Origin: Flavobacteriaceae bacterium
GTDB lineage: Bacteria; Bacteroidota; Bacteroidia; Flavobacteriales; Flavobacteriaceae
Length of the DNA stretch: 64,000 nucleotides
Assembly: GCA_947464335.1 (NCBI GenBank)
Contig: CANHWG010000002.1
Span: 21,701 to 85,700 of the forward strand
Reading direction: 5' to 3'
Position 1 is the first letter of the stretch; the number at the start of each line of letters is the position of its first letter. Shown here in pieces: positions 24,203 to 27,791 of the stretch. The notes under the pieces were generated by a model, which saw nothing but the letters and a program-made list of their open reading frames with translations, had not been told where the DNA came from and ran no database searches. The translations under genes and the position numbers were made by a program.

Positions 24203-24210
24203 TAGATTTG
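24203..24210 (+). promoter_or_regulatory. Bacteroidota -7 element TAGATTTG upstream of the OmpA-family gene
   Basis: TAnnTTTG match 18 nt upstream of the ATG at 24229. Confidence 0.4.
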
Positions 24211-24228
24211 CAAAAAAATATATATTTT

Positions 24229-25548
24229 ATGAGAAAATATTTGTCATTAATTTTGATAATTCTTGTTGCTAGTAGTTCTTTTTCACAAGAAAGTATTGAT
24301 TCAGCAAGTATAAAAAAACCAAAAATAAATAGATGGTCTATAGATTTTTCTTTTGGAAGTAGTCGGGGAATTAGACCTTACAATGAGGGTTATTTTTCTA
24401 CTGAAAATGAAAAGTTTTTAGGGGAATTTAATTTAAATTCTATCAATATTGGAGCAAGGTATTATATTAATAAATACGTAACATTTAAATCTGATTTAGC
24501 TTTTGATCGATTTTTACCTACGAACGATAAAAGTTTAGATTTTGATGTGGCTCAATATAGATTGTCTATTCAGACCATGTTTAACATTAATATGTTATTT
24601 GGTTTAGATGAATTTTCAAAATTCAAATTACAACCTCATTTAGGGTTAAATATTGCTTCTTTGAAAACTATTAAATCATCCCAAAATCAGGTCATTGGTT
24701 CGCCTGATCATATCATCGGAATGATTATAGGTATTACTCCTTCCTACAACATAACAAGTAAAACTAATTTATTTTTAGATTTAAGTTTAATAAACAATTT
24801 TAGACAACATCATACTTGGGATGGAAATGTGTCAGATGAAACGAATAATTTAACAGGTCAGATGAGTAACATTTCATTAGGAATTAGCTATAAATTAGGA
24901 AAACCAATTACTAATGATGAAAAAGAAGCACTAAAAAAACTGGAAGAAGCCAAAAATAACGAATTAGAAAAAAGACTTACTGATGTTGAAACTAAACTGA
25001 TTGATACTGATAATGATGGAGTACCAGATCTTATTGATCAAGAGAAAAGTTCATTAGAAGGAGCCTTGGTAGACAGTAAAGGTGTTATGATTGACAAAAA
25101 CAAAAATAATATTCCTGATGAAGTAGAAAAGTATTTAGATAAAACGAATGGAAAAACGAATGGGAGTGGTTTAAATAATTCAGAAGATTCAAGTAATGAA
25201 ATGTTCAAAAAAGCAATAGATGAAGGTTATATCTGTGTGTTTTTCGAAACAGGTAAAGCAGTGTATTCTAATTCTTCTAAAGATGCTATTAATTACATAC
25301 AAACTTTCTTAATAACAAATCCTGAGGCTAAAATCGATTTGATTGGGTACACTGACGATATTGGAACAAGCGAGTACAACCAAAAATTAGGTTTAGATAG
25401 AGCTAATAATGTAAAAGATACTTTAGTTAAATTAGGAATTGAACCTTATAGATTAAAGGCAATATCTGCTGGGGAAGATCAAACTTATAATCCAAGTACA
25501 CAAGAGACAAGAAGTTTTGTTAGAAAAGTTATTTTTAGAATAAAATAA
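24229..25548 (+). CDS. OmpA-family outer membrane protein
   Basis: Signal peptide MRKYLSLILIILVASSSFSQ; DTDNDGVPDLIDQE calcium-type repeat; OmpA domain IDLIGYTDDIGTSEYNQKLGLDRANNVKDTLVKLGI. ORF track starts at a TTG at 24208; the ATG at 24229 looks better. Confidence 0.92.
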   Translation: MRKYLSLILIILVASSSFSQESIDSASIKKPKINRWSIDFSFGSSRGIRPYNEGYFSTENEKFLGEFNLNSINIGARYYINKYVTFKSDLAFDRFLPTNDKSLDFDVAQYRLSIQTMFNINMLFGLDEFSKFKLQPHLGLNIASLKTIKSSQNQVIGSPDHIIGMIIGITPSYNITSKTNLFLDLSLINNFRQHHTWDGNVSDETNNLTGQMSNISLGISYKLGKPITNDEKEALKKLEEAKNNELEKRLTDVETKLIDTDNDGVPDLIDQEKSSLEGALVDSKGVMIDKNKNNIPDEVEKYLDKTNGKTNGSGLNNSEDSSNEMFKKAIDEGYICVFFETGKAVYSNSSKDAINYIQTFLITNPEAKIDLIGYTDDIGTSEYNQKLGLDRANNVKDTLVKLGIEPYRLKAISAGEDQTYNPSTQETRSFVRKVIFRIK

Positions 25549-25580
25549 TGGGATTAACTATATAGTAAATATATTTTATG

Positions 25581-25608
25581 AAAACCTGAAATTTTAATTT
25601 CAGGTTTT
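25581..25608 (+). terminator. Terminator of OmpA-family gene
   Basis: AAAACCTGAAATT-TT-AATTTCAGGTTTT followed by T-run. Confidence 0.85.
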
Positions 25609-25896
25609 TTTATTTGTATTAGTGATCAACTTCAATTACATTTAAGCTACGTTTTTCTATTTATTAATTGGTAATGAGATTTGATATAAAGAGGAGGACT
25701 GCCAGTGGCAGTCAGGCCTGCCTGCCGGAAGGCAGGTACGCGAGCTTTAGCTCGCTAAGTATCGCTTGGGATTAACTTCGTTGATCCTTTTTGGTAGAAC
25801 CTAACACAAAAAAACCTCCAAGAACGCTTCGCGTCCTTTTGTTTTTTTTTCTAAAACACTTACAAGAGCAAACTCTTTACGCGTTTTAAAAATAAA

Positions 25897-25920
25897 AACC
25901 GATTAGTTTCCTAATCGGTT
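25897..25920. terminator. Terminator-like hairpin of repeat unit 1 (loop TTTC on + strand)
   Basis: AACCGATTAG-TTTC-CTAATCGGTT with flanking A/T tracts. Confidence 0.75.
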
Positions 25921-26156
25921 TTTTTGTGGGTAATGAGATTTGATATAAAGAGGAGGACTGCCAGTGGCAGTCAGGCCTGCCTGCCGGAAGGCAGGTACGC
26001 GAGCTTTAGTTCGCTAAGTATCGCTTGGGATTAACTTCGTTGATCCTTTTTGGGAGAACCTAACACAAAAAAACCTCCAAGAACGCTTCGCGTCCTTTTG
26101 TTTTTTATTTCTAAAACACTTACAAGAGCAAACTCTTTACGCATTTTAAAAATAAA

Positions 26157-26180
26157 AACCGATTAGGAAACTAATCGGTT
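26157..26180. terminator. Terminator-like hairpin of repeat unit 2 (loop inverted, GAAA on + strand)
   Basis: AACCGATTAG-GAAA-CTAATCGGTT. Confidence 0.75.
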
Positions 26181-26387
26181 TTATTGTGGGTAATGAGATT
26201 TGATATAAAGAGGAGGACTGCCAGTGGCAGTCAGGTACGCGAGCTTTAGCTCGCTAAGTATCGCTTGGGATTAACTTCGTTGATCCTTTTTGGTAGAACC
26301 TAACACAAAAAAACCTCCAAGAACGCTTCGCGTCCTTTTGTTTTTTATTTCTAAAACACTTACAAGAGTAAACTCTTGACGCGTTTT

Positions 26388-26420
26388 AAAAATAAAAACC
26401 GATTAGTTTCCTAATCGGTT
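26388..26420 (-). terminator. Probable tRNA-Val terminator (repeat unit 3 hairpin)
   Basis: Minus strand: AACCGATTAGGAAACTAATCGGTTTTTATTTTT starting 6 nt after the tRNA discriminator base. Confidence 0.8.
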
Positions 26421-26426
26421 TTATTG

Positions 26427-26501
26427 TGGGTAATGAGGGATTCGAACCCCCGACCCTCTCGGTGTAAACGAGATGCTCTGAACCAACTGAGCTAATCACC
26501 C
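26427..26501 (-). tRNA. tRNA-Val (anticodon UAC)
   Basis: GGGTGATTAGCTCAGTTGGTTCAGAGCATCTCGTTTACACCGAGAGGGTCGGGGGTTCGAATCCCTCATTACCCA folds as a cloverleaf; anticodon loop TTTACAC; CCA not encoded. Confidence 0.97.
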
Positions 26502-26570
26502 GTGTTGCGCTTTAATGCGAGTGCAAATATAGGACTCTTTTTTATATCTGCAAACTTAAATTGAAAAAAA

Positions 26571-27791
26571 TCACAAAATTTCTGCTACTACAAACGTACT
26601 CCCACCAAGATAAATGAAGTCATTATGGTTGGCATTTTTTTTAGCGGTTAGATAAGCTTTTGATACTGAAATATATGTTTCTCCGCAAAGAGAATAAGTC
26701 ATTGCTTTTTCTTTTAAAATTACAGGATCTAATCCTCGAGGAATATTTGGCTTACAGAAATAATAAATGGCATTTTTGGGAAATATAGGTAGAATTTCGT
26801 CTAGATTTTTGTCATTTACTAATCCTAAAACTATATGTAATTGATCATAAATTTCATTTTTTATTTGGTTCATAACAATTTTTAACCCGTGAGCATTATG
26901 TGCCGTATCACAAATAATTTTTGGATTTGAACCCAGTTGTTGCCATCTTCCTTGAAGCCCTGTATTTTTAATTACATTCAAAAATCCTTTTATAATAGCT
27001 TCTTCAGGAACGATTAGCAACTTTTTAGTATTGACTACTTTTAGGGTTTGCAATACCGTTTTTTTATTTTGAACCTGATAATCGCCCAGCAAAGCCGAAG
27101 GATAAGTTTCTTGAATCAAATCGGAGGCAAAATAGATTTCAGAGTGCATCTCTTTTGCTTTAGTTAAAAAAACAGATTCTGTTTCAGTCGTATATTCTCC
27201 AATAATTATAGGGATATTGGATTTAATAATTCCGGCTTTTTCATACGCTATTGCTTCTAAAGTATCTCCTAAAAATTGTGTATGATCTAATCCGATATTT
27301 GTGATAACCGATACTATTGGAGTAATTATATTAGTCGAATCTAATCTTCCTCCCATTCCCACTTCAATAATATTGATATCTGTTTTTTGTTTCACAAAAT
27401 ACTCAAATGCCAAACCAACACTCATTTCAAAAAAACTTAATTCATGTGTTTCAAAAAACGCTTTGTTTTTGTTTATAAAATTACAAACGTATTGCTCCGG
27501 TATCGGTTTCCCGTTAATGACAATTCGTTCTCGATAATCTTTTAAATGGGGTGATGTATACAAGCCAACGTTATAACCTGCTTCTTGTAAAACCGAAGCT
27601 AAAAGATGCGATGTTGATCCTTTACCATTGGTTCCTGCCACGTGTATACATTTTAAATTTTTCTCTGGGTTACCTAAATGATTGGATAATAAAACGGTAT
27701 TGGTTATATCTTTTCTGTAGGCAGTTGCACCTTGTGTTTGATACATGGGCAATTGGTTAAACATCCATTTTAACGTTTCCGGATAGTTCAT
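26571..27791 (-). CDS. folC: Folylpolyglutamate synthase / dihydrofolate synthase
   Basis: HVAGTNGKGSTSHLLASVLQEAGYNVGLYTSPHL; VGMGGRLDSTNII; DTAHNAHGL. Confidence 0.95.
   Translation of the reverse strand: MNYPETLKWMFNQLPMYQTQGATAYRKDITNTVLLSNHLGNPEKNLKCIHVAGTNGKGSTSHLLASVLQEAGYNVGLYTSPHLKDYRERIVINGKPIPEQYVCNFINKNKAFFETHELSFFEMSVGLAFEYFVKQKTDINIIEVGMGGRLDSTNIITPIVSVITNIGLDHTQFLGDTLEAIAYEKAGIIKSNIPIIIGEYTTETESVFLTKAKEMHSEIYFASDLIQETYPSALLGDYQVQNKKTVLQTLKVVNTKKLLIVPEEAIIKGFLNVIKNTGLQGRWQQLGSNPKIICDTAHNAHGLKIVMNQIKNEIYDQLHIVLGLVNDKNLDEILPIFPKNAIYYFCKPNIPRGLDPVILKEKAMTYSLCGETYISVSKAYLTAKKNANHNDFIYLGGSTFVVAEIL

Follow-up and report, generated by a model that had tools for sequence, protein, structure and literature searches.

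The window, i.e. the whole stretch of 64,000 nucleotides analysed here, contains one tRNA-Val(UAC) gene, which was called by ARAGORN and Rfam at 26426-26501 on the minus strand. It is preceded by folC and followed by a tandem array, on the other side of which a gene for an OmpA-domain protein is located. The initial annotation had described three tandem units behind the tRNA gene, each with the tRNA 3′ end, and this description was confirmed by ARAGORN, Rfam, TRF and an exact motif count. The following features were assigned, the unit limits being counted from the insertion point along the tRNA strand:

24208-25548, plus strand: gene of an OmpA-domain protein, other side of the array
25670-25678, minus strand: 9-nt remnant of the tRNA 3′ end (CTCATTACC), terminus of the array
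25679-25937, minus strand: unit 3, 259 bp
25679-25755, minus strand: dispersed element in unit 3, split by a 20-bp palindrome at 25717-25736
25894-25923, minus strand: terminator of unit 3
25938-26197, minus strand: unit 2, 260 bp
25938-26014, minus strand: dispersed element in unit 2, split by a 20-bp palindrome at 25976-25995
26155-26182, minus strand: terminator of unit 2, with inverted loop (TTTC instead of GAAA)
26198-26437, minus strand: unit 1, 240 bp, comprising tRNA end, terminator, hairpins and element
26198-26254, minus strand: dispersed element in unit 1, with hp2 (GCGAGCTAAAGCTCGC), hp1 (ACTGCC-ACT-GGCAGT) and the end CCTCCTCTTTATATCAAAT
26395-26422, minus strand: intrinsic terminator of unit 1, directly behind the tRNA
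26426-26501, minus strand: tRNA-Val(UAC), intact, target gene (ARAGORN and Rfam)
26437-26438, no strand: insertion point in the T-arm of tRNA-Val, ..TTCGAATCC^CTCATTACC.., at the same position in G141 (L190) and strain J49 (L064)
26571-27791, minus strand: folC, upstream of tRNA-Val, synteny anchor for finding relatives

The motif GGTAATGAG, which is the complement of the tRNA 3′ end CTCATTACC, has exactly four matches in the 64-kb window, at 25670, 25929, 26189 and, inside the tRNA gene, 26429. TRF and a repeat search revealed spacings of 259, 260 and 240 bp. Thus, the boundary positions given by the initial annotation were reproduced, but the true boundary lies inside the T-arm (..GGTTCGAATCC^CTCATTACCCA..), and the last boundary retains CTCATTACC only. 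Every unit starts with the tRNA 3′ end CTCATTACC(CA). At aligned positions the units are 96.2-98.7% identical; they differ by substitutions, by the inverted terminator loop of unit 2 and by the palindrome CCTGCCTTCCGGCAGGCAGG, which the distal units 2 and 3 contain and unit 1 lacks, and which makes up the size difference of 20 bp. Palindromes similar to it occur elsewhere in the window genome (C4, C22, C35). Since the units differ from each other, they are not copies of a single sequence multiplied during assembly; the copy number, however, could still be wrong, the window genome being fragmented (92 contigs, 87% complete). No open reading frame of at least 50 amino acids was found between the OmpA-domain gene and folC (25549-26570), and the array shows no sign of a cellular function.

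All units have the same order: the tRNA tail is followed by a strong intrinsic terminator, further hairpins and a compact terminal element, after which the next copy of the tRNA end begins directly. Terminator-like sites numbered 13 in the array region compared to 0.8 in shuffled sequences. The loop TTTC of the unit 2 terminator is the reverse complement of GAAA, the loop in the other two units, a change of the type produced when template switching inverts a hairpin loop. In E. coli tyrT, repeats behind the tRNA gene likewise each contain the tRNA 3′ end (rtT RNA), and the initial annotation had suggested that the array is a counterpart of this locus. Of this suggestion, only the resemblance in layout was upheld. 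The Rfam search (cmscan to E 5) listed no match to the RtT covariance model and homology was therefore rejected, a terminator stands behind the tRNA end, and the element is dispersed at 5S rRNA, tRNA-Leu and protein genes. That the units might nevertheless be cotranscribed with the tRNA gene and yield small RNAs by processing is highly improbable. Such a function would agree with the tRNA 3′ end in each unit and with the strong folding of the unit as RNA (z -7.6), but the unit folds just as strongly as single-stranded DNA (z -7.4), which is to be expected when palindromes are stacked, and the array is absent from most relatives with folC synteny. Due to the terminators, which are located directly after the tRNA and at the start of each unit, release of a processed RNA from the tRNA transcript is unlikely.

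The element corresponds to the last ~57-77 bp of the unit and consists of hp2, hp1 and the tail TCCTCCTCTTTATATCAAAT, with which it ends exactly. In the window genome, matches to the whole unit were restricted to the tRNA-Val locus, while the last ~40 bp of the unit were also present at C47, C2 and C16. Dispersal of the unit over many non-tRNA sites, named by the initial annotation as the finding that would speak against it, thus holds for the terminal element but not for the whole unit, and an interpretation of the whole unit as an interspersed repeat was rejected. A pattern for the element end (ATTTGANATNNANAGGAGG, at most one mismatch) matched eight times in the window genome, 82 times in G016, 40 times in G212 and 21 times in G142, whereby single matches per genome may be due to chance. 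Beyond the genus, an exact 20-mer of the element was found once each in two of 236 other Flavobacteriaceae genera. The copies are palindromic, mostly intergenic and dispersed. Compensatory changes preserve the pairing of hp1, the loop ACT being combined with at least seven different stems. From this preservation it appears that recognition of hp1 probably takes place in its folded, single-stranded form.

To what extent the element is accompanied by a duplicated target was determined with 112 copies taken from around a dozen genomes of Flavobacterium. The DNA starting directly (1 nt) after ATCAAAT was repeated upstream of the element in 37 copies, a few of which represent direct repeats of the element or second units within one array; a control with swapped flanks gave 2 of 555. 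The remaining 75 copies, which may be old, very short or made without a duplication, showed none by the same criterion. After removal of array and direct-repeat cases, 28 distinct insertion sites were left. Their consensus is TNC^(G/C)T, in short TNC^ST (T in 24, C in 22, G/C in 23 and T in 21 of the 28), and the duplications extend from 15 to at least 150 bp. Gene ends account for most of the sites. If a gene points towards the element, the upstream copy contains its stop codon (in the clear cases), and if it points in the opposite direction the start codon is found there, indicating that the interrupted gene survives. Besides tRNA-Val, the targets include tRNA-Leu of G142, at the equivalent position of the T-arm, 5S rRNA and a protein gene of the window genome, and the RNase G/E gene of the window genome (G000), G013, G032 and G146. 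The RNase G cassette is itself doubled in G032 and G013, and in G212 RNase G is likewise followed by a related element. At L314, L315, L324, L327, L334-L336 and L338, an intergenic repeat, GGCTATnCGnTnCAATCTTTT..AAAAGGATTTCCACTnCTATCnGGGCTAGGG, recurs downstream of RNase G.

These data also bear on the question of whether the array might have arisen by ordinary replication slippage with the hairpin element as a mere passenger. Unequal exchange between direct copies would indeed suffice to convert one unit into three, but slippage leaves unexplained why the exact element end forms the junction in 37 copies at different genes and why the sites share the consensus TNC^ST. We consider this origin improbable.

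The gene order folC, tRNA-Val(UAC) is shared by nearly all of the relatives examined. The site is empty in G170 (L035) and in strain AS60, whereas the single-contig genome G141 (L036/L190) contains one element with a duplication of ~190 bp (98% identical) and the window genome three units. Strain J49 (L064) has at least one insertion, namely one element and, up to the contig end, the beginning of a second unit. Contig ends within about 350 nt behind tRNA-Val were encountered in about 12 of 80 named loci, as expected of repeats. Other arrangements were observed as well. Tandem complete tRNA-Val genes also occur behind folC among the named loci, and L044 and L074 harbor, 978 nt behind tRNA-Val, a larger insert whose two small ORFs resemble, by eye, a nucleotidyltransferase/HEPN pair and whose end is formed by a tRNA 3′-end copy. 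L113 and L034 show older-looking hairpin modules behind tRNA-Val, which end with GTTAATCC or GCTAACCC and are immediately followed by a tRNA 3′-end copy; these modules possibly represent a second element family at the same site.

Taken together, the array is likely the insertion product of a hairpin element that targets gene ends and was later multiplied. This reading draws directly on the exact element end, the duplicated target, the site consensus, the empty, one-unit and three-unit states and the same behaviour at other genes. It also supports one suggestion of the initial annotation, that integration or duplication took place repeatedly at a tRNA 3′ end and left the repeats behind, in this case by element insertion with duplicated gene ends. 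According to the proposed course of events, a small hairpin element of Flavobacterium, exact at one of its ends (..hp1-TCCTCCTCTTTATATCAAAT), would insert at the T-arm of tRNA-Val, possibly triggered by a strand break at this position, and would leave a second copy of the gene end and of downstream DNA (~190 bp in the relative with the single insertion). The tRNA would stay intact because the upstream copy retains the whole 3′ end and the terminator. Recombination between the direct copies could then have raised the number of units to three; the distal remnant in the window comprises only 9 nt and this last array step was not read directly. Tandem duplication of a segment plus element as the first step was rejected, as G141 has one element and two copies of the gene end.

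The two copies of the gene end do not necessarily have a local origin. In another scenario the cassette brings in the gene end of another strain or species, similar to tRNA-targeting islands, so that the two copies are alleles. The copies at protein genes do diverge like functional alleles: of 29 differences, 23 affect the third position of a codon (binomial p 5e-7), and the encoded peptides are mostly the same. The RNase G genes of G000, G013 and G146 have identical coding ends with different terminators behind them, different terminators were also found at L184, and matches between gene-end copies often stop exactly at the ATG or the stop codon. Neither the third-position bias nor the limits at start and stop codons nor the differing terminators are predicted by plain local duplication. 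On the other hand, both RNase G copies bear the species' own C-terminus in four species, and in the duplication at tRNA-Val of G141 conservation is as high in the non-coding stretch as in the stretch that belongs to the tRNA (98%), which fits local duplication. Moreover, replacement of the upstream gene by another allele after the insertion could yield the same third-position bias. For the protein genes, the allele-like copies can hence be attributed either to a foreign gene end brought by the cassette or to a functional copy later replaced by other alleles. As a general explanation, import of gene ends is conceivable but rather doubtful.

Which enzyme mobilises the element was approached through the gene content of the carriers. 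At E 1e-5, no Y1_Tnp gene was detected in G000 (87% complete), G016 (82 element matches) and G212 (40), and RVT_1 was absent from G000, G141, G170 and G155; the present-day absence of a gene is compatible with past or outside activity, and G000 is incomplete. The geometry of the insertions is like that of target-primed insertion, but an origin by reverse transcription was rejected since RVT_1 is missing from the four carriers. The possibility of a usual REP element moved by a RAYT (Y1) transposase would be in line with its dispersed, palindromic, mostly intergenic copies and its covarying hairpin. Against it stand the element-rich genomes without Y1, the lack of GTAG/GTGG at the hairpin foot and the Y1 transposase genes located downstream of RNase G in G141 (L314) and G185 (L315), which are flanked by a different palindrome, AATCCCGTTAGGGATT. 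A RAYT origin was therefore rejected as very unlikely. The palindrome AATCCCGTTAGGGATT itself looks like the REP of a Flavobacterium RAYT. In the open-access papers on Flavobacterium, no description of gene-end-duplicating palindromes or of tRNA-linked GIY-YIG cassettes was found. We tentatively raise the possibility that Flavobacterium possesses a family of non-coding hairpin elements, exact at one end, which insert site-specifically (TNC^ST) at gene ends and repair the interrupted gene by means of an end that is copied or imported, in the absence of a transposase or reverse transcriptase of their own, which would constitute a distinct minimal mechanism of mobile DNA.

A candidate for the initiating strand break is provided by cassettes of another kind at the same locus. 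In L083 (F. dankookense) and L102 (Flavobacterium sp. 11), tRNA-Val is followed by two tandem cassettes of ~363-367 bp in which an ORF for a small GIY-YIG nuclease lies between copies of the tRNA 3′ end; further GIY-YIG cassettes behind tRNA-Val are present at L127 (one) and L290. Similar cassettes were found behind tRNA-Leu (also in the window genome, L144), Met, Arg, Pro and Ala. Mini-cassettes with an ORF of ~85-120 amino acids were seen at L144 (G000:C4:65669-65866), L083, L102, L127, L279, L282, L288, L290, L291, L295 and L302, usually with a degenerate tRNA copy bearing a palindrome such as CCTGCCTGCCGGCAGGCAGG, while at L143 (G000:C12:49915-50133) a small GIY-YIG ORF is located between palindromes of the CCCTTCGACTGCGCTCAG type. 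The end of the hairpin element was absent from the 32 GIY-YIG loci examined, and G142 revealed no small GIY-YIG gene despite its 21 element copies. Due to the lack of common ends and of such genes in G142, GIY-YIG was rejected as the element's own enzyme. In phage T6, the GIY-YIG nuclease SegB drives tandem amplification of a tRNA-Tyr segment and prefers the motif RAWTSGAAC (PMC13096335). The complement of this motif, GTTCSAWTY, matches the T-arm of tRNA-Val at 26439-26447, adjoining the insertion point. Considering the cassettes at tRNA genes, the SegB precedent and the motif match, it is plausible that a GIY-YIG nuclease of the tRNA-cassette kind cuts the T-arm and thereby acts as the trigger.

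The element may be a general source for the fragments of tRNA, rRNA and protein gene ends that are scattered in Flavobacterium. The series of empty, one-unit and three-unit sites offers a natural system for studying how tandem arrays begin behind tRNA genes, and the exact junctions together with the site consensus make the mobilising enzyme findable. Caution is advisable in the annotation of related genomes, since gene-end duplications and contig breaks behind tRNA-Val may stem from such cassettes and not from functional RNA arrays.

With tyrT/rtT, the locus has in common the repeats behind a tRNA gene and the tRNA 3′ end in each of them. What separates it is an array that gave no sequence match to rtT, starts each unit with a terminator, is driven by an element and has parallels at non-tRNA genes. 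Integrative islands and prophages that target tRNA genes insert in the 3′ part of the tRNA, regenerate the gene end and leave an orphan copy. The array shares these three properties, but its units of 240-260 bp possess neither an integrase nor any ORF. Terminal inverted repeats, as in MITEs and insertion sequences, were not seen by eye, nor was there a target duplication of fixed length. The DDE insertion sequences IS1549 and IS1634 generate direct repeats of 8-514 bp (PMC2266710) and are in this respect similar to the element with its long target duplications of variable length. Contrary to the element, they are 1.5-2 kb in size and have inverted ends and a transposase gene. REPs and REPINs with their RAYT transposases are short dispersed palindromes, mostly near gene ends, whose stems are kept by paired changes (PMC3733652, PMC6006769). 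The element corresponds to them in its shortness, dispersal, palindromic nature, conserved hairpin and frequent position near gene ends. It differs in that no GTAG/GTGG or CGTC tag was seen at the hairpin, whose feet on the two strands are AGGAGG and CCTGA, in that several carrier genomes lack a RAYT, and in that it has one exact end with duplicated gene ends. As it resembles REPs but fails two defining REP features, it is filed as a palindromic mobile repeat variant and not as a REP. Unlike the GIY-YIG/SegB cassettes (PMC13096335), the window cassette contains no nuclease ORF and has an end of its own, absent from the GIY-YIG loci examined, but both kinds of cassette occupy the same locus and other tRNA genes, regenerate or duplicate tRNA 3′ ends and form tandem copies.
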